Shown here: in pieces, positions 18,602-28,534 of the stretch
Position numbering within the stretch: the first letter of the stretch is position 1
Layout of the letters: each line of letters starts with the position of its first letter
Assembly: GCA_021300155.1 (NCBI GenBank)
Contig: JAJTID010000044.1
Location: 1 to 44,489, forward strand
Reading direction: 5' to 3'
Length of the DNA stretch: 44,489 bases
Source: Pirellula sp.
Lineage (GTDB): Bacteria > Planctomycetota > Planctomycetia > Pirellulales > Pirellulaceae
Program-made: the position numbers and the translations under genes
The notes under the pieces: model-generated
Told to the model about the DNA's origin: nothing
Databases searched by the model: none
Seen by the model: the letters and a program-made list of their open reading frames with translations, nothing else

Positions 18602-20386
18602 CTACGGAACGGAAAGCAAAACCGATTGGTCGAGAGGATCGAGTCCTAAGCTGGCTTGGAGCGCAGCGATAGCAGCAAAGTATTCCCTCTCGGCCTCGTA
18701 GAGTTTTGCTTCTGCTTCTGTGACTTTGACCTCCTGTTGAAGCAATAACACCAAGTCAAAATCCCCCGCTGTCAGTGCGAGTTGGAAATAGCCTTGGACT
18801 TTGGTCGCTTCTTCTAGTAGCCCTCTGGCAGCAACAACATTTTGATAAGAGTACGCAACGTGGTTCCGGGACATCTGGATTTCATTGGCAATCTTGTTCC
18901 GTTGGAACTCAAGCTTTTGTTCTAACTGCGTTAACTTTGCCGTGGTGCTTTGAATCTTACCGAACGCTTTGTTTCGTTGTATTGGTACGTCGCCAACGAT
19001 GCCCGCTTCGATTTCGAGTTCCCCTTTGTCGTTTCTGGCTGAAATCCTCTGACCGACGTCCTGTGCCGCTTGAACGGTAAAGTCTACGTTTGGCAGTGTT
19101 TGGTTCCTCGCCAACTGAAGATCCCATCGAATCTCGCGGGACATCAAATCAATCAATTGTATTTCCGGTCTCGTGGTCAAAGCGCTCGAGAGATCTTGCT
19201 CGAGACTTTGGAAAGCAATCTCCAACGCTTCAGGAAAATCAGATGGCAACCAATCGGGTGATGCGAGCATCGGCTTGCCTGATTCATCCCGCAGGAAGAG
19301 CGAAAGCTTGATTCCTGCATCCAGAAACTTCATACGAGTATCATTCACCTTCATTTGACGGGAATAGATCTCTTGTTTGTTGAGCGATACCTTGAGCCTC
19401 GTTCCCGTGTTGTTTCGCAATTCGAGCTCAAACTGCTCGCCACGTTCAACTGCGATCTGAAGCAATCGTTCCTGCGCTTGGAGAACTTTCCCTTGCTCTA
19501 CCCACAACCAGTAAGCCAGAGCAGCATCTCGGGTCGCGACGAGAAGCTGAAACTGTACTTCGGGGCCAACGGCTTGTTGTCGGAGATTCGCTTGAAACAA
19601 TTCCACCCGTTGTGGATCAATGGCACGTCCTTGCAACAGGGGTTGAACGTAATTGGCTTTGAACTCACCAGCTTCGTTGGTTTCGCGTTCCTTGTACCAA
19701 GGTTCAATATTCCCTCGTCCGTTTCGATAACCGACACCGACATACCCACCGAACCATGTTTGGCGTGCCACTCCCAATCCGTTGCGGTAGGTTTCGTAGA
19801 ATCCTAGTGGCTGGTTTAAGGAGTAGTACTCGATCTTGGTATCGTAAGCCCCCCACGCAGATTGAATTTCTCCTCTTGCGACTCCAGCTTCCAACCGAGC
19901 GATTTCAATCAATGGAAAAGCCCGAAAGGTTGAGGCGATCACATCGTTCAACTGCAAAGCATTCGGATTGGTAGTCTCGTTCGGTCCGAGATTGGGCTCT
20001 AGAACCGGTGGCGAAACGGTCCCGTCCGCACGAGGCGGTTGTTTCAAACTCTCAGCCTCAGGTTGGTTCCTTGCTGTGTCGCGAAGATTGCTCTCCTTAC
20101 GGTCCTCAATCCGTTGCGTCTCGGCTTTATCCTTGTCTGCTCTTCGAAGCTCCCGGTTTAGACGATCACGAACAGAGTCTCGCTGCGTTTGCTGCAGACG
20201 ATCTGTCGGCTGAACATTAGGTAGCGTTGGATCTTGTGCTTTCGTAGTGCCCGACAGACATGCCCCGATCAGGATCACAAGCGTTTTGCAAACTACTTGA
20301 CCTTGGGCTTTTTGATTTCTTTCTCTTTCGACATCTCTTCGTCGGCATTTTCGCGAGCCGGGGGAAATCCGTTGAGTTGACGCCAT
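18602..20386 (-). CDS. TolC-family outer membrane efflux/secretion protein
   Basis: An outer-membrane channel of tripartite export systems. Two halves of helical barrel are visible: ASTFRAFPLIEIARLEAGVARGE, then ALTTRPEIQLIDLMSREI and the second-half QLARNQTLPNVDFTV, with long alpha-helical repeats at LEQKLEFQRNKIANEIQMS and the C-terminal EREYFAAIAALQASLGLD. The start is uncertain. The longest frame (ATG 20386) overlaps the HlyD-type gene by about 94 bp and begins with a very basic stretch. A GTG at 20278 would give a short signal sequence (ILIGACLSGTTKAQ) and avoid the overlap. Neither is preceded by a clear ribosome-binding site. It is the last gene of the ABC-HlyD-TolC operon. Confidence 0.88.
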   Translation of the reverse strand: MASTQRISPGSRKCRRRDVERERNQKAQGQVVCKTLVILIGACLSGTTKAQDPTLPNVQPTDRLQQTQRDSVRDRLNRELRRADKDKAETQRIEDRKESNLRDTARNQPEAESLKQPPRADGTVSPPVLEPNLGPNETTNPNALQLNDVIASTFRAFPLIEIARLEAGVARGEIQSAWGAYDTKIEYYSLNQPLGFYETYRNGLGVARQTWFGGYVGVGYRNGRGNIEPWYKERETNEAGEFKANYVQPLLQGRAIDPQRVELFQANLRQQAVGPEVQFQLLVATRDAALAYWLWVEQGKVLQAQERLLQIAVERGEQFELELRNNTGTRLKVSLNKQEIYSRQMKVNDTRMKFLDAGIKLSLFLRDESGKPMLASPDWLPSDFPEALEIAFQSLEQDLSSALTTRPEIQLIDLMSREIRWDLQLARNQTLPNVDFTVQAAQDVGQRISARNDKGELEIEAGIVGDVPIQRNKAFGKIQSTTAKLTQLEQKLEFQRNKIANEIQMSRNHVAYSYQNVVAARGLLEEATKVQGYFQLALTAGDFDLVLLLQQEVKVTEAEAKLYEAEREYFAAIAALQASLGLDPLDQSVLLSVP

Positions 20387-21708
20387 ATTTCGAAACCAAG
20401 TGGGACGCTATCCATTATGATCCAGGCATTAGCCCGAACCCCTTGTTTTAAGTATCGTCTATCAGGCCACCTTTCTTGGATTGGATCTGACGGATCTGGT
20501 CCAACAAATACCTTGAAATTCCCCTTTCCGTCGTCGGCGGGATTGATAGCAATTACAATGCCGCCGAATGTACCCCGAGCGGCGCTAGGCCATCCCACAA
20601 ACTGAATGGCTGGCCAACCATCGAATTGCAGACGAACTTTATCGCCGACCTTGATAAGAGGTTGATCCATACCACGGACACTTAACTCGACCCACAGGTA
20701 GTCCGTCTCGGGAATGATCTCGAATAATGGCTCGCCGATGTCGACGTTCTTTCCTACTTGGCCAAGGATTGATTGAACACTTCCGGTGTTAGGGCTTAGC
20801 ACTTGCGTTCGTTCGAGTTCACCTATCTTTACGATCACATCTTGTAACTCTTTGGAGGCTTCCGCAATCTTTCCTCGAAACTCTTGTACCTTTTGCTCGC
20901 TCTGATTGATCTTGATAGCGATTTCCCGACGTTTGCTATCGAGCAATTCTTCCTTGGCAACTTTCTCGTGAAATGCCTCTGATTCCGCTTCACGAGCCTT
21001 TTTCAAGTTGTTCGACTCAATCTCCTCTTCAGTTTTAGCTTGCATATACTCAAGTTCGGAAACGGTGATCCCTCTCAATGGCTGGATTGTCTGAACATTT
21101 ACTTGCGCTTGCTTCGCTTTGTTCTCTTGTGCATCGGTACTTGCTTCGGCTGACTTCCACTTGGCGTATGCACCCGCGATCTCGGATTGGGCAGATGTGA
21201 TCTGTTTATCCCCGGATTCAATACTATCTGTTACTTGAGTTCGTGCGAACGAAAGTTGAGACTCCAAATACGCAATTTTGTCCCGGACAGTCTTTTCTTG
21301 AAGCCGCGTTAACTCCAGTTGATCTTTGGCCAGCGTCTCAATCTCCATCAGCTTCTCGCCCTGCTCGACAAGCGATCCTTCCTGAAGTTGATCTTTCTGC
21401 CATTTGATCACTCCCTTCGCGGCACTCAAAAACACCTGTCTTCGCTCATTCGGGTTTCGCGCTGTTACCATTCCTTCGCATCGCGATGTTTGCTGCCATG
21501 GGACAAAGATCCCTGCAAAAACAAATAGCAACAACAAATAGAACGTGATGTTTGCAAGTGAGCGTGCAAACCAGCTCGAACGGACCAAATGCATTGCTGG
21601 AAAGTTTTCCGCAAGCATCTCCGAAGGGCGATAGCGGATCATTCGCTTTTTTGAGCGGATGGTGTGTTGCTGAGCTTGGTTCGGTTCCTGGTCTACGCGT
21701 GTTCGCAT
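20293..21708 (-). CDS. HlyD-type membrane fusion (periplasmic adaptor) protein
   Basis: Periplasmic adaptor that links an inner-membrane transporter to a TolC channel. A cytoplasmic N-terminus is followed by one TM segment (ANITFYLLLLFVFAGIFVPW), a first lipoyl half-motif (GVIKWQKDQLQEGSLVEQGE), a long coiled-coil hairpin (about residues 105-290), the second lipoyl half (SPNTGSVQSILGQVGKNVD) and a beta-barrel domain (VRGMDQPLIKVGDKVRLQF). The ATG at 21708 follows AAGGATTTGAGCTC, a usable ribosome-binding site, and lies 16 bp inside the upstream ABC gene; the open frame reaches 21735. Length (~471 aa) is normal for type I secretion adaptors. Confidence 0.9.
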   Translation of the reverse strand: MRTRVDQEPNQAQQHTIRSKKRMIRYRPSEMLAENFPAMHLVRSSWFARSLANITFYLLLLFVFAGIFVPWQQTSRCEGMVTARNPNERRQVFLSAAKGVIKWQKDQLQEGSLVEQGEKLMEIETLAKDQLELTRLQEKTVRDKIAYLESQLSFARTQVTDSIESGDKQITSAQSEIAGAYAKWKSAEASTDAQENKAKQAQVNVQTIQPLRGITVSELEYMQAKTEEEIESNNLKKAREAESEAFHEKVAKEELLDSKRREIAIKINQSEQKVQEFRGKIAEASKELQDVIVKIGELERTQVLSPNTGSVQSILGQVGKNVDIGEPLFEIIPETDYLWVELSVRGMDQPLIKVGDKVRLQFDGWPAIQFVGWPSAARGTFGGIVIAINPADDGKGNFKVFVGPDPSDPIQERWPDRRYLKQGVRANAWIIMDSVPLGFEIWRQLNGFPPARENADEEMSKEKEIKKPKVK

Positions 21709-23897
21709 GAGCTCAAATCCTTGTTTCCGTCGCACTGTTCAATAATGGTTGGATCGTGTGTTGCCACGATTAGTGTCCAGGGTTGTTTCTTATCACGTAA
21801 TCGATCCCAAATCTCGTTGCGCATCCGTCCCGGCAAAGCGTCGAGAACTCCATCGATCAGCAGCAATCGAGGGGTCGACACAATCGCCCTCGCGATCATC
21901 AATCGAGCCATTTGTGAAGGCTCGAGCGGATACCCATCGCTTTGAAGTGAAGTTTCCAAGCCGTTCGGGAGCGTTAGCACTTCGTCCCAAAGGCCTGCTG
22001 TGATTAAAGCCTCGCGAACATCCGATGACGAAACAGTCAAACGATTCAGAGAAATGTTTTCCTGTAACGTTCCGTGGAAAATCTCGGTCTGCGATGCGAT
22101 CGCAACCATAGAGCCTTCGGAGAATCGATTGACCTCGCGTGAATCGACGCCTCCGATTTCAATGAGCCCATGGGCTGGTGCGTCCAGTCCACACAAACAT
22201 TCCATCAACTGAGGCCGTCCGCAATCGCCGTCGCCATAAACTGCAAATCGGGATCCGCTTTCAATCTTGATGTTGCCAAACTTCATCAATTTATGACCGC
22301 TCGATTGGACTCCCAGATCCTCCATTCGAACCTCGACCGGCCCGGTGCCAGCATCGAGCGTTCGCGAAGGTGGAAGGGTTGGTAGATCGATCAAGTGCCC
22401 GACTTTATCCGTGGAAGCCATCAGGTCATAAAACGACTCCAACGATTTGCCGATTTTTGCAAAGGCACCCACGACGATGGCGATAACGGAAACGCTCGCC
22501 ACCAATTGGCCAATGGTCAATGTGTTGGAAAGCACCAACCATAGCCCGAGCGCCAAGATCGCGGTGATCGAAAAGGAATAAAGCAGTAACGAAAACAGAG
22601 TTTGCCGCATCAACACCAAGAAGTGCTTTCGCCTCGCGGCCAGATACTCGACGGTCAATCGATTGGCCCGGTCGACTACCAATTCTCTGCCACCGTGAAC
22701 TTGGAATGCCAACGGATTGCCAATCACATCTTGAAGCCAGTGGGCGATACGATACTTGACCAAGGATTCCTCAATTGCAGTCCGAACCGCATTCCTTCCC
22801 AAAATCAATAGAAATAAGGTCATGCACATAATCAAGACAATGTCGAACGCTAATAGGAACGGACTGTAAATGGCGAGCAGCAACAATCCTGTCAACGTTT
22901 GAATGATCAGCGACAAACCTTCGACGAGAAGGGTGGCTGTCGCTTTCTGCATGGTCATCACATCGAAGAATCGATTAGCCATCTCAGGACCATAGATGCC
23001 TCGCATCGACGATCGTTCCAATCGAGGCAATCGCTCCGATAAATCGCCAACAATGCGAACAAACATGCGCCTTTGCAAAATTTCAACAATGAAGAACTGT
23101 AACCCCTTGATCACAGCCGAAAGAGACAGTAACCCAAAGAGCAAGATGGCCAGCCAAATGAGCGGTTGGGTCAAGCTGGTGAAACCGATGGTCGTCACCA
23201 TCTGTTCGATAGCCAGTGGCGTCGATAACTCGAGAACAGCGACCACGAATCCGAATATCACGAGGGACCAAATATCTCGTGTGTCCGCCTTTAGAAACTC
23301 TATCATCCGCCTAAGCGGTGATAAATGCTCGTGCGCATGATCGTCATGATCATGATTATGGTCGTGATTGCCAGCCACACGGTTCGAGTCTGAATGTGAA
23401 ACGTGCTCTTGATGGGATGAAGCTGCGGTTGCGCATGTCAACGAGGGTTCTGCGACAAAGCAAAACGCGTTTTCTCGCTTCATCTGCCGGATGAGTTGCA
23501 GTCGCGTTAATGACTCGGAAGTATTTCCGCTCGCCTGAATGGTCGTGGCATCTATTTTACCGAAGGAAATGTCGGAGTAGAGGACCGCTCGATCACCATC
23601 CATGCGGGACCTCATCGCAATGACAGCAAACCCCTCCAACACGAGTTCCCAAGCGTCGGTACCTCCCAGCTCGATCGGCGCCACTCGTATCCCTATCCCC
23701 TGCGCCGCCCGCATCATCACCAGCGTGATGGAATCCTCAGTCTGTTCCTGCAGGTCGCTCAAAGAATCCGACAGAGATTGTTGTAATCGCCCAGCCTCAA
23801 CGGAAATATCCAGACGGACTGCTAGCTCGCTCAACGTAGATCGAAGCAACTCAAGCAATTGACCGTTCGACCTGCCATCAGTAGCCGGCTTTTGCAT
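21693..23897 (-). CDS. ABC transporter, fused TM and nucleotide-binding domains, NBD apparently degenerate
   Basis: A 734-residue half-transporter of the type I secretion/bacteriocin-export layout. The first ~160 residues resemble a peptidase-like (C39-like) accessory domain (GIGIRVAPIELGGTDAWELV). A His-rich segment (about residues 174-190) precedes a six-helix TM domain beginning LVIFGFVVAVLELSTPLAIE. The C-terminal ATPase domain has the right architecture, but the Walker A reads GDGDCGRP (residues 555-562), with Arg561 for Lys and Pro for Ser/Thr. The LSGGQ position reads EPSQM, and Walker B is LLIDGVLD with Gly683 for the catalytic Glu. The H-loop VATHDPT is kept. It is the first gene of an operon with HlyD- and TolC-type genes. 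The ATG follows TTAGGAGTTTTT, a good ribosome-binding site. Confidence 0.93.
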   Translation of the reverse strand: MQKPATDGRSNGQLLELLRSTLSELAVRLDISVEAGRLQQSLSDSLSDLQEQTEDSITLVMMRAAQGIGIRVAPIELGGTDAWELVLEGFAVIAMRSRMDGDRAVLYSDISFGKIDATTIQASGNTSESLTRLQLIRQMKRENAFCFVAEPSLTCATAASSHQEHVSHSDSNRVAGNHDHNHDHDDHAHEHLSPLRRMIEFLKADTRDIWSLVIFGFVVAVLELSTPLAIEQMVTTIGFTSLTQPLIWLAILLFGLLSLSAVIKGLQFFIVEILQRRMFVRIVGDLSERLPRLERSSMRGIYGPEMANRFFDVMTMQKATATLLVEGLSLIIQTLTGLLLLAIYSPFLLAFDIVLIMCMTLFLLILGRNAVRTAIEESLVKYRIAHWLQDVIGNPLAFQVHGGRELVVDRANRLTVEYLAARRKHFLVLMRQTLFSLLLYSFSITAILALGLWLVLSNTLTIGQLVASVSVIAIVVGAFAKIGKSLESFYDLMASTDKVGHLIDLPTLPPSRTLDAGTGPVEVRMEDLGVQSSGHKLMKFGNIKIESGSRFAVYGDGDCGRPQLMECLCGLDAPAHGLIEIGGVDSREVNRFSEGSMVAIASQTEIFHGTLQENISLNRLTVSSSDVREALITAGLWDEVLTLPNGLETSLQSDGYPLEPSQMARLMIARAIVSTPRLLLIDGVLDALPGRMRNEIWDRLRDKKQPWTLIVATHDPTIIEQCDGNKDLSSCEHA

Positions 23898-24403: not shown

Positions 24404-25558
24404 GTGAAACCAAAGGCAGTGCTAGCGTATTGTCGCGAGAAAGGGATTCGCGCGTTCGACCTGCGGTATTGCGACCTGGACGGAAACTGGCGACAAGTCA
24501 CTTTGCCAGTCACGGGACTGAATGATAGTTCTTTCGAAGAAGGCTTTGGACAAGAGATTGTTCTTCATCCGAAGTCATCGACCAGTTCTTTTGCCATACT
24601 GATGCCAAACAGTCATGCGAACTATTTGGATCCACTCACACTACACCCGACACTCGTGCTCGTGTCGACGATTCAGGACAATTATCAACTTCAAGAAAGT
24701 CCGTTCGACTCGCGGTTTGTTGCCCAGCAGTCGCTTCGCTATCTCCAGGCGACCGGAATTGCTGACGATGTTCACGTTCGAAATACACTTCGGTTCGGAC
24801 GGATGAAGCACGAAGCTCCTAGGGTAGTGCATTCTGATGTAACCGACGATCAATTCGTTTTGCGCTGCGAACTCATGGATAAAGCGATTGACGCCGGGAT
24901 TAACGTGGATCGACACTACAGTACGGATCATAGCGTGTCGGATATCGTTTTGCGATCCACGAGTCTAATTGAATCGGGCGATGATGTGATGATGATGCGC
25001 TACCTCATTCAACAGATGACATCAAACCAATGGACGACAAACGGTTATTGGGCGACTAGCCAATGGAACATGATGCGAAATGAGGAACCATTGTTTCCTG
25101 GGACCGCTCATCGTGGACTCAGCGACACGGGGATCCACGCGCAAGCGGGAATTGTTCGACATGCATCTGTTCTCGCGGCAATAGCACTCTTGCCGAAACT
25201 TGCAACGGATTCAGTGGAGTACCCGTTCGCGGCTGACAACAATCCAGAGAATTCGGCGTCTATAACACGGGCAATCAACGACGCCTCATCACCTCGCACG
25301 ATGACCGTCGAGCTACGCGGCATTCCAGTAGAGGCGAATCATTACTTGGCACATGCTGCAACCGTGATGGCGATGATCGACGGGATTCAGAACAAGTGGA
25401 TGCCCTCGAAGCACACCGAGAATCCGGATCGGATCTACACCGAATCGAAAGTATTGGCGGCCTGCTTTAACGACGACTGGGATTTTCTCAATCGAGGCGA
25501 TGTATTCCGAGAGGAACTGATCGAGTTCATCCGCGATCAACTCCATTGCAAACCATGA
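24404..25558 (+). CDS. Glutamine synthetase-like protein lacking catalytic residues
   Basis: A 384-residue protein aligned by eye with type I glutamine synthetase over its whole length. The beta-grasp domain is represented by IRAFDLRYCDLDGNWRQVTL and FEEGFGQEIV, the linker by SLRYLQATGIADDV, and the catalytic domain by MMRYLIQQMTSNQW, AGIVRHASVLAAIALLP, ENSASITRA and the C-terminal ATVMAMIDGIQNKWMP. The metal-binding E-x-E after TGIAD is replaced (RNTLRF), the HHHE...NE segment reads RHYSTDHSVSD, and no GSGMH block is present. Only the Glu in MTVELRG matches a known ligand position. Ligase activity is therefore unlikely, and a regulatory or scaffold role is possible. The GTG start is preceded by GAGGAA. 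The stop overlaps the next start by 4 bp. Confidence 0.88.
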   Translation: MKPKAVLAYCREKGIRAFDLRYCDLDGNWRQVTLPVTGLNDSSFEEGFGQEIVLHPKSSTSSFAILMPNSHANYLDPLTLHPTLVLVSTIQDNYQLQESPFDSRFVAQQSLRYLQATGIADDVHVRNTLRFGRMKHEAPRVVHSDVTDDQFVLRCELMDKAIDAGINVDRHYSTDHSVSDIVLRSTSLIESGDDVMMMRYLIQQMTSNQWTTNGYWATSQWNMMRNEEPLFPGTAHRGLSDTGIHAQAGIVRHASVLAAIALLPKLATDSVEYPFAADNNPENSASITRAINDASSPRTMTVELRGIPVEANHYLAHAATVMAMIDGIQNKWMPSKHTENPDRIYTESKVLAACFNDDWDFLNRGDVFREELIEFIRDQLHCKP

Positions 25559-27201
25559 ATGTTGCCAAGCGTTTGGGTGAACAATCGCTCAAGAACCCAA
25601 ATCAATTAGCGATTGTGTCTCCATCGGGTTCGCATCGACAAAAGACGAATCGTTCTTACGTTTCCATCTCGATGTCGGACCTGGACAGTCGCTCGTCCGC
25701 GATCGCTGCGGGATTGCAGTCGATGGGAATCGGCCCAGGCAAACGCATTGGGCTTCTCGTTCGATTTGGTGAAGACTTTATTACGCTAGTCTTTGCGATG
25801 CTCAAGACGGGTGCGACGATGATCTTGATCGATCCAGGCATGGGTCGAAAGAACATCCTCCAATGTTTGGAAGCAACGAATCCCGATGGATTTATTGCGA
25901 TTCCCATAGCGCACGCGATTGTCCGTATGTTGTCATCTCGATTTCCGAATGCGAAGCTCAATGTACTCGCGGGGCGTTGGCTTCCGGGCTTGCCGAGCAT
26001 CACACTGAGCCAATTGGAGAAATCCTCTCCCAAAGATTACCGCGATCCGATTCACGATTGGGAAGCGGAGTCCGCGATCATCTTCACCACTGGTAGCACT
26101 GGGCCTCCGAAGGGAGTCCTCTACACGCACAAGACATTTCATTCGCAAATCGATTTGATCGCCTCTCGATATGGGATTTTGTCTGGCGGAGTCGACTTGA
26201 GTTGCTTCCCGTTATTTGGATTATTCAATGCGGTCATGGGAACAACGACCATTCTTCCGGACATGGATCCAACTCGACCAGCGGATGTGGATCCCCCTCG
26301 ACTACTGGATGCGATCGAACAATGGCAAATCGGCCAATCCTTTGGTTCACCCGCGTTGTGGACTCGCATGGGGAACTACTGCCAACAGACAGGCCGTTCG
26401 ATGCACACCCTAAAGCGAGTGCTTTCTGCGGGTGCTCCAGTGCCACCCAGAGTTCTTCAGTGTATTCGATCCGTCATCCATCCGGACGGAACGATGTACA
26501 CGCCCTATGGTGCCACCGAGGCTTTGCCGATCGCATCGATCGAATCACGCGATGTTTTGGGGGAAACTGCGGCCAAGACCGCCAATGGGGCTGGCACGTG
26601 TGTTGGCTCTCGGTTCCCCAGTATGGAATGGCGAGTTATTCGTATCACGGACGCTGCCATGCATACGATGCAGGAAACAGAATTGTTGCCGATAGGCGAA
26701 ATTGGCGAACTTGTCGTGTCTGGCCCCGTTGTTTCGACACGTTATGTCACTCGACTCGATCAGAATGCGATTCACAAGCTCTCGGACGATGACCGCGTTT
26801 GGCATCGGATGGGAGATGTGGGATATCTCGACTCGCAAGATCGATTCTGGTTCTGCGGACGCAAATCCCATCGCGTGACTACCGCCCATGGAACGCTCCA
26901 TACGGAACAAGTCGAAGCGATTGTGAACTCTCATCCATGCATCTATCGTTCCTCATTAGTCGGCACGGGACATTCGCCGAATCAGAAACCGTTGGTCATT
27001 CTGGAGCCTTGGCAGAAAAGCTCGACGCCAATGCAACTTGAGAAAGAGATTGCTGATAAGCTGAAAAACTACGAGTTGACGAAAAACATCGCCGACACGG
27101 TCGTCTATCCTAAGAAACTTCCGACAGACATTCGTCACAACTCCAAAATATTTCGCGAGCAGCTCACTAGCTGGGCGAATGAACATCGAGCCGAACGTTG
27201 A
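25555..27201 (+). CDS. oleC: OleC-type beta-lactone synthetase/fatty acid adenylating enzyme
   Basis: An ANL-superfamily adenylating enzyme, 548 aa. The A3 phosphate-binding loop is IIFTTGSTGPPKGVLYTH (about 175-192), the A5 motif is YTPYGATEALP, and A7/A8 are MGDVGYLDSQDRFWFCGR. The C-terminal A10 region RHNSKIFREQL carries the catalytic Lys. LIDPGMGRKN, TTILPDMDPTRPADVDPP and the RHNxKIFRE end are features I associate with OleC, which activates a beta-hydroxy acid and closes a beta-lactone on the way to long-chain olefins. A related acyl-CoA or acyl-AMP ligase is the alternative. The ATG at 25555 overlaps the preceding stop (ATGA), so translation is probably coupled. No oleA, oleB or oleD is in the window. 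Confidence 0.9.
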   Translation: MNVAKRLGEQSLKNPNQLAIVSPSGSHRQKTNRSYVSISMSDLDSRSSAIAAGLQSMGIGPGKRIGLLVRFGEDFITLVFAMLKTGATMILIDPGMGRKNILQCLEATNPDGFIAIPIAHAIVRMLSSRFPNAKLNVLAGRWLPGLPSITLSQLEKSSPKDYRDPIHDWEAESAIIFTTGSTGPPKGVLYTHKTFHSQIDLIASRYGILSGGVDLSCFPLFGLFNAVMGTTTILPDMDPTRPADVDPPRLLDAIEQWQIGQSFGSPALWTRMGNYCQQTGRSMHTLKRVLSAGAPVPPRVLQCIRSVIHPDGTMYTPYGATEALPIASIESRDVLGETAAKTANGAGTCVGSRFPSMEWRVIRITDAAMHTMQETELLPIGEIGELVVSGPVVSTRYVTRLDQNAIHKLSDDDRVWHRMGDVGYLDSQDRFWFCGRKSHRVTTAHGTLHTEQVEAIVNSHPCIYRSSLVGTGHSPNQKPLVILEPWQKSSTPMQLEKEIADKLKNYELTKNIADTVVYPKKLPTDIRHNSKIFREQLTSWANEHRAER

Positions 27202-27568: not shown

Positions 27569-28534
27569 ATGTCGAAACGATTTACCCGTTTAGGAAGATC
27601 ATTGGGCTTCACATTAGTGGAGCTTTTGGTGGTGATCGCCATTATTGGAATACTAGTTGGATTGTTGCTTCCGGCGGTTCAGGCTGCACGCGAGGCGGCA
27701 AGACGCATGCAGTGTTCCAACAACATCAAGCAGTGGTCACTCTCCTTCCACAATTTCGAGAGTGCGAATAAGCGGTTTCCTATCGGGGGAACTGGAAATT
27801 CAGCCGCGACCGCTGTTCCGCGTACTTGGCGGCAAACGTGGGTGATGTATCTCTGGCCCTACATGGAGCAAACCAATTTGGCCAACGCCAGTAATTACCA
27901 GGAAAGATTCCATGTTCCACCCAATACGATCTACTTTACATTGAACGGTTCGACTGGCCGTCGAGTACCGGCCTACCTTTGCCCGAGTGATAACGGCACG
28001 ATCGATCAAAACCACACTTCCAGCCAACATCAACGCACGCGCGGCAATTATGTTGTCAACTGGGGGAACTCTTGGTACGGCCAAAATCCACAACCAGCAG
28101 GACAAGCACCTTTCTTCAACACAGACGGAAATCGTACACGACCAGGAAAGGTGACATTTGGCTCGATATCCGACGGAACTTCCAATACGCTTTTGGTCTC
28201 GGAGTACTTAATTGCCAAGAGCGACCGCGATAACGATTGGCGTGGAGACATCCATAATGATGACGGAGTCTTTCGCTTCCACACGTTGTTGACTCCCAAT
28301 ACGCGGTCACCGGACATCATCGCAAACGGATGGTTTCAGGTTACCAACGATCCAGCCATGCCTGCAACTGCAGGTGCCCAGCAACGAAATGCTGCCCGAA
28401 GCCGTCATACGGGCGGTGTCAATGCGGGGCGATGTGACGGTTCCATCAGCTTCGTGAGTCAAAACGTAGCAACCATCGTATGGCAAGCGTTGGGTAGCAT
28501 GAACGGTGGCGAAGTTTTCGAGAACCCAGAATAA
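27569..28534 (+). CDS. DUF1559 domain-containing prepilin-like protein
   Basis: A 321-residue member of the large planctomycete DUF1559 family. The N-terminus carries a type IV prepilin/pseudopilin signal (GFTLVELLVVIAIIGILV), with G|F cleavage expected by prepilin peptidase, followed by the family stretch PAVQAAREAARRMQCSNN. Downstream blocks YLCPSDNG, ISDGTSNTLLVSEY and SRHTGGVNAGRCDGSISFVS are the usual DUF1559/H-X9-DG region (here R-C-D-G). The proteins are thought to be pilin-like surface or secretion components; the precise role is unknown. An AGAGGG ribosome-binding site lies before the ATG. A hairpin follows 35 bp after the stop. Confidence 0.95.
   Translation: MSKRFTRLGRSLGFTLVELLVVIAIIGILVGLLLPAVQAAREAARRMQCSNNIKQWSLSFHNFESANKRFPIGGTGNSAATAVPRTWRQTWVMYLWPYMEQTNLANASNYQERFHVPPNTIYFTLNGSTGRRVPAYLCPSDNGTIDQNHTSSQHQRTRGNYVVNWGNSWYGQNPQPAGQAPFFNTDGNRTRPGKVTFGSISDGTSNTLLVSEYLIAKSDRDNDWRGDIHNDDGVFRFHTLLTPNTRSPDIIANGWFQVTNDPAMPATAGAQQRNAARSRHTGGVNAGRCDGSISFVSQNVATIVWQALGSMNGGEVFENPE

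Follow-up and report, generated by a model that had tools for sequence, protein, structure and literature searches.

What does a glutamine synthetase (GS) do once its active site has gone? This question is raised by a gene of Pirellula sp. that lies on the stretch of DNA analysed here, a contig of 44,489 nucleotides (the window). The coding sequence (24404..25558, + strand, GTG start, TGA stop) specifies a 384-residue descendant of type I glutamine synthetase (GSI), henceforth pseudo-GS. The initial annotation had read this protein as a GS pseudo-enzyme with nearly all metal ligands replaced, and had proposed that it could serve as a regulator, a chaperone or a ligase with altered chemistry. 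TIGR00653, the curated GSI family model, scores pseudo-GS at 93.8 bits and thus below its cut-off of 429. In its own genome (6.46 Mb, 99.99% complete) we found two GS genes, one for pseudo-GS, which is the only GSI-type gene found, and one for a type II enzyme (GSII) of 337 residues. A structural model of pseudo-GS has the GS fold with both the beta-grasp and the catalytic domain, a similarity that is partly built in, since 12 of the 31 rows in the alignment used for the model are canonical sequences.

We numbered the six metal ligands of GS as in the Salmonella enzyme: E129, E131, E212, E220, H269 and E357. In the window protein these positions are occupied by Thr, Arg, a gap, Asp, Thr and Glu. 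Residues T128-L129-R130 (24785..24793, +) stand where the E-x-E ligands E129 and E131 were, and R170-H171-Y172 ... D180 (24911..24943, +) takes the place of the HHHE...E motif, with E212 lost and E220 represented by Asp. The sole metal-ligand Glu kept is E303 (25310..25312, +), the equivalent of E357. The claims that almost all metal ligands have been replaced and that a single Glu persists are therefore upheld. The substitutions also recur in relatives. Among 24 sequences (the window protein and 23 others from the genus; the fragment L028 from G025 was left out), E129, E131, E212 and H269 are each kept in none, where for E212 and H269 two alignments place the gap differently but neither yields Glu or His. 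E220 is kept in 20 of the 24, with Asp in two more, and E357 in 17. All six ligands are present in 22 of 22 intact GSI from relatives, and no scored same-genus homologue has a full GS site with its Glu and His ligands in place.

The damage extends beyond the metal site. In the window protein, E272 aligns with the flap residue E327, R339 is replaced by Ser, and D50/S53 by Glu/Ile. Across the genus, E327 is Glu in 7 of 24 sequences and R339 is found in none; the equivalent of R359 is kept in 18. A profile alignment makes the flap about six residues shorter than in GSI. An apparent deletion of about 18 residues was rejected as an overcount, as the gap columns had been opened by one long row. At column 397, the site of adenylylation, none of the 24 genus sequences has Tyr, as opposed to 21 of the 22 intact relatives. 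The alignments thus show a predicted loss of the active site that is common to every genus copy scored: pseudo-GS is without a metal site, a recognisable flap, an adenylylation loop and the C-terminal end, and has kept the GS fold. Compared with GlnA of other Pirellulaceae, it shares the fold, the domain order and the N-terminal helix, and its clade stands beside canonical GSI, but it has lost the metal site, the D50/S53 loop, the recognisable flap, the Y397 loop and the C-terminal end.

A remodelled pocket could, in principle, catalyse some other reaction of the ligase or transferase type that needs little metal. The partial retention of E357, E220 and R359, the alignment of window E272 with E327, and a histidine (H171) that is invariant across the pseudo-GS set are what such an enzyme might leave behind. 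However, the flap is shortened, E327 and R339 are mostly or entirely gone, and E357 itself is lost in seven of the 24 sequences. The residues that are invariant among pseudo-GS and not in the mixed set (M1, K2, K4, A5, L7, A8, Y9, L84, A107, S179 and R298) lie mostly in the first helix, and no new site of acidic, His or Cys residues emerges from them. For these reasons we regard a new enzyme as very unlikely. The bacterial GS-like ligases GlnA2-4, PuuA and GmaS, which are active enzymes on other substrates, resemble pseudo-GS in being divergent GS paralogues; unlike them, pseudo-GS no longer has the metal site.

Is this gene, then, simply a relic, released by a sufficient GSII, stripped of its site and heading for loss, with open reading frames that are an accident of time? 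Homologues of the window protein occur in 24 of 26 same-genus relatives with 33-89% identity, the copy in G025 being a fragment at a contig end. None was found in G003 (77% complete) and G013 (93% complete), both of which have GlnE. The closest homologue, at 88-89% identity, comes from an uncultured Pirellula metagenome-assembled genome (L023); full-length matches other than that in G024 are 33-48% identical. By contrast, a comparison of GSII with that of six other genus members gives 87-91% identity. The reading frame is open in all 23 complete copies scored. In a tree with 15 canonical GSI the 24 genus sequences form one clade (100/100) on a branch of about two changes per column, and the 19 genus sequences in a larger tree of 53 rows, which omits L011, L013, L017, L020, L021 and L028, are still one clade.

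Nei-Gojobori dN/dS values of 0.087-0.177 were obtained for nine genus pairs with dS <1, which share sequences and are not independent; other pairs were saturated (L005/L006, dS 2.2) or gave an undefined value (L008/L012). Between the own genome (G000) and G024, dN/dS is 0.147 for pseudo-GS and 0.045-0.113 for six neighbouring genes, two of them with dS >1. This comparison indicates that pseudo-GS is less constrained than its neighbours, yet clearly under purifying selection. The low ratios, the near-universal presence in the genus and the uniformly open frames all speak against a relic, as does the conservation of the first helix described below. What speaks for one is the rapid divergence of the protein and the ease with which GSI disappears elsewhere in the family, and we consider a decaying remnant improbable. 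In our judgement pseudo-GS is, with high probability, a selected pseudoenzyme descended from GSI, so that the initial reading of a GSI-derived pseudoenzyme is confirmed at the level of sequence and extended to the genus.

What is under selection? We divided 23 genus sequences into blocks of 15 residues (L017, cut by a contig end, was omitted). Codons 1-15 (24404..24448, +; VKPKAVLAYCREKGI in the window protein) have a mean pairwise identity of 0.97, in contrast to 0.22-0.64 for the blocks elsewhere. In a sliding window of 15 residues the best stretch outside this segment reaches 0.70. The 22 intact GSI give 0.70 for block 1-15 and 0.58-0.94 for the remaining blocks. The conservation profile is thus inverted relative to intact GSI: by this measure no part of pseudo-GS is now better conserved than the N-terminal helix, which spans residues 3-13 in the structural model, and the protein outside it is evolving fast. 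Synonymous codons differ within the block, which argues for selection on the protein and not on the DNA. Several positions are peculiar to the genus: K2, A5 and Y9 occur in 24 of 24 sequences (as compared with four, none and one of the 22 intact GSI, respectively), and G14 in 23 of 24 (two of 22). From helix periodicity we infer that positions 2, 5 and 9 share a face of the helix. A search of the own genome for a second copy of the helix with a 29-residue query, a length at which matches can be missed, found none.

A precedent for such a surface exists in E. coli. A review describes dodecamers of E. coli GS as meeting head to head through H5 and H13 of the exposed N-terminal helix, so that in these filaments this helix is the contact surface (PMC13142944). 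An ungapped alignment to Salmonella GS places H5 and H13 at window positions 5 and 13. Pseudo-GS differs in having Ala5 and Lys13 instead of His at these putative stacking positions. Taken together, the hyperconserved helix and the stacking helix of E. coli GS suggest that a docking or stacking surface may have turned into the main selected feature of the protein. Among the roles listed in the initial annotation, that of a regulator or scaffold is consequently the best supported, because constraint has moved to the exposed helix, whereas the new ligase is disfavoured, because the newly invariant residues fall mostly within that helix and do not make up a new site of acidic, His or Cys residues. 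That pseudo-GS works through helix-mediated docking or stacking is a view towards which we lean, if only slightly.

The companion GSII suggests how this situation could have arisen. Its motifs E-x-E, E...E, GSGMH and R-x-x-x-x-R-x-P are intact by reading of the sequence, and it scores 385.7 bits against the GlnII model, below the cut-off of 500. In a sample of 149 genomes of the family, which are related to one another, seven belong to the genus and all of these have both pseudo-GS and GSII. The other 142 comprise 96 with a GSI match, of which 50 have GSII, and 46 with no GSI match or a weak one, of which 40 have GSII; given the relatedness of the genomes, a Fisher test on these counts is not to be read literally. 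These 46 genomes speak for the relic reading. From outside the genus we fetched 20 loci that were low-scoring, short or from genomes with a close GSII, and hence not a random sample. Nineteen were scored: in nine, two to five of the six ligands differ (Asp in place of Glu was counted as a difference), three have all six ligands but other active-site changes, and seven are intact. The twentieth, L082:1-1601 (G174:C1:3843300-3844900), was left out of the 19-locus alignment; this GSI is broken into three open pieces in a one-contig genome and is evidently a decaying copy.

The nine ligand-changed GSI are L064 (G190), L065/L066 (G144/G101), L067 (G129), L069 (G181), L073/L074 (G081/G132) and L079/L083 (G107/G145). 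They have open frames and come from four genera (g46, g76, g56 and g82) on several branches of the 53-row tree, where branches are long and the independence of losses outside the genus is uncertain (three to four label changes in bootstraps). We therefore rejected the idea that GSI degeneration is unique to one genus. Genus g46 contains a graded series, with GSI intact in G170, changed in G181, G129 and G190, and absent from G071 and G154. Each of the nine genomes has another GS gene, namely GSII in g46 and g82, GSIII in g76 and further GS genes in g56; the types were assigned by gene length and by the region matched. GSI catalysis thus seems to have been lost repeatedly, after a second GS had become available. 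The degenerate copies in several genera and the broken gene of G174 fit a relic; however, three pairs of degenerate GSI outside the genus are identical at 15 of 15 positions in residues 1-15, with the rest at 75-94%, although for the closest of these pairs such identity is not improbable.

The regular coexistence of degenerate GSI with another GS would also be expected if pseudo-GS bound to GSII as a regulatory subunit and tuned the activity of that enzyme. All seven genus members in the family sample carry GSII, and the nine other genomes with degenerate GSI each carry a further GS gene. Against this stands the distance between GSI and GSII, together with the mismatch in ring symmetry, since GSI forms hexameric rings and GSII pentameric ones. 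Moreover, the other GS in g76 is, by its length, GSIII and not GSII. A GSII regulator is accordingly, to us, no less unlikely than a new enzyme. The scenario we favour instead is a scaffold or docking protein. GSII would have taken over glutamine synthesis and thereby released GSI from catalysis. What then preserved GSI would be a non-catalytic task, one that falls chiefly to the exposed N-terminal helix, either because copies of pseudo-GS stack on each other or because the helix face holds a partner. As a whole, the explanation that a GSI-derived pseudoenzyme is kept for such a job by way of its helix seems to us reasonably probable.

A candidate for such a partner is GlnE. According to one paper, the C-terminal domain of GlnE AMPylates GS and the N-terminal domain deAMPylates it, under the control of P-II (PMC12409994). 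We found the GlnE family PF03710 in 60 of 60 genomes searched (the own genome and 59 relatives), with best scores per genome of 74-124 bits in the genus versus 119-244 elsewhere. The own GlnE (G000:C162) scores 172 bits against PF03710. By sequence and by model fold (pLDDT 85.4, from a 22-row alignment with eight rows from other genera) it matches both halves of E. coli GlnE, 3k7d and 1v4a. Both of its nucleotidyltransferase domains have altered D-x-D, which we take to be the catalytic motif: domain 1 reads P-x-E and domain 2 D-x-G. Thus the fold of both halves is kept as in the E. coli protein, and the genus differs from it by the loss of D-x-D in both. In the genus, domain 2 has an intact motif in 0 of 27 proteins (the second Asp being Gly, Ser, Thr, Pro or Asn) and domain 1 in 0 of the 26 covered, given that the GlnE of G015 does not reach domain 1 and that several domain 1 sequences are too diverged for a sure alignment.

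Outside the genus, genomes with canonical GSI retain the motif in 11 of 11 cases in domain 2 and in nine of 11 in domain 1, a group to which G035 and G047 were assigned on the strength of their scores (450 and 458 bits) and nothing else. The corresponding figures are 2/2 and 1/2 for partly altered GSI, 4/8 and 1/8 for degenerate GSI in other genera (G145, split over contigs, was dropped) and 7/9 and 0/9 for genomes without GSI. GlnE of the genus appears, from these motifs, to have lost its active sites as well. It nevertheless evolves under constraint, with dN/dS of 0.099 and 0.217 in the two usable pairs. Residues 601-660 are 72-80% identical within the genus versus a median of 36%, and the same segment is 68-76% identical in canonical GlnE, which indicates that this block was kept and not newly tightened. 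P-II, the regulator of GlnE in E. coli, is present in 40 of 40 genomes searched; judged by score, the best copy is like that of relatives (112-116 bits) in 23 of 25 genus members, and lower (92-94 bits) in G003 and G016.

Pseudo-GS and GlnE have thus degenerated together and been retained together, but GlnE also survives in the nine GSI-less genomes examined, so its retention is independent of GSI and a complex of both proteins is a hypothesis. GlnE, the former modifying enzyme retained after D-x-D loss in both nucleotidyltransferase domains, would be the partner held by the helix face; we put it forward as a tentative candidate, with more doubt than conviction. The fullest version, in which GSI and GlnE both turned into pseudoenzymes and still join one another and P-II in a helix-docked, non-catalytic nitrogen-status complex, along a route begun independently in other Pirellulaceae genera, strikes us as rather unlikely in its entirety. 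As a separate observation, the GlnE proteins of GSI-less genomes (among them L094, L115-L117 and L120-L122) have an intact motif in the adenylylating domain in seven of nine cases, and may act on another target, such as GSII or P-II.

Non-catalytic use of the GS fold has a known example. Lengsin, the GS-like protein of the vertebrate lens, was recruited to a structural role; by description, pseudo-GS resembles it in the presumed non-catalytic use of the fold and differs in setting, which for lengsin is the eye. GS pseudoenzymes are therefore known as a kind. Decay of GS paralogues is also in print: mycobacterial glnA3 and glnA4 are reported to be undergoing reductive evolution, and two species have pseudogenes (PMC2667176). 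Our literature search, with most subscription journals outside its coverage, returned no report of an inactive GlnE or of a GS pseudoenzyme in bacteria, and the putative genus-wide bacterial case with a degenerate GlnE was not found there.

Glutamine synthetase and its adenylylation cycle are a textbook case of metabolic control. Here one lineage holds an enzyme and, apparently, its modifier that have lost their chemistry and stay under selection. Since intact, half-degraded and dead GSI copies occur in one family, the group offers a view of how an enzyme becomes a non-enzyme. It also bears on which part of GS always had a second, structural role, and the first helix is a sharp prediction in this respect. 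In practical terms, a glnA or glnE annotation in the genomes of these planctomycetes does not guarantee an active enzyme.

The gene neighbourhood provides one more possible partner. The initial annotation had stressed the translational coupling of pseudo-GS to an adenylating enzyme. In the window, the stop codon indeed overlaps the ATG of the next gene in an ATGA (25555..25558, +; checked at this locus only). This gene (25546..27201, +) encodes an OleC-like AMP-forming ligase that matches PRK09274 with 619 bits (cut-off 478) and the olefin beta-lactone synthetase model with 527 bits, below its cut-off of 900. The overlap would point to pseudo-GS as a partner of this ligase in a beta-lactone or lipid pathway. 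The two genes adjoin each other in five of the 21 genus loci read (G000, G024, G006, G026 and G012; G004, G008, G015 and G025 were left out), and the neighbour differs in the other 16, where the helix and the active-site losses are the same. The coupling is thus real in the own genome but does not generalise, and we rejected it as an explanation for the genus at large. The link is local, since the neighbours vary from one subclade to another; the ligase is probably a neighbour in one subclade only and not part of the function of pseudo-GS, and a shared pathway is highly improbable. Elsewhere in the genus, pseudo-GS is preceded in seven genomes by EF-P, identified with Pfam in one of them, and a Pcm-like methyltransferase, and a Xaa-Pro aminopeptidase lies 3' of it in nine; the names of the methyltransferase and the aminopeptidase were read off the sequences and are presumptive. 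Divergent from pseudo-GS, the window carries a row of TolC-like, HlyD-like and ABC exporter genes (18602-23897, -), which stays beside pseudo-GS in G024 and G006; in G026, where the contig ends, part of the row is seen. On the 3' side of the OleC-like gene lies a gene (27569-28534, +) whose product, a DUF1559 (SBP_bac_10) protein, carries a methylation motif at its N terminus.
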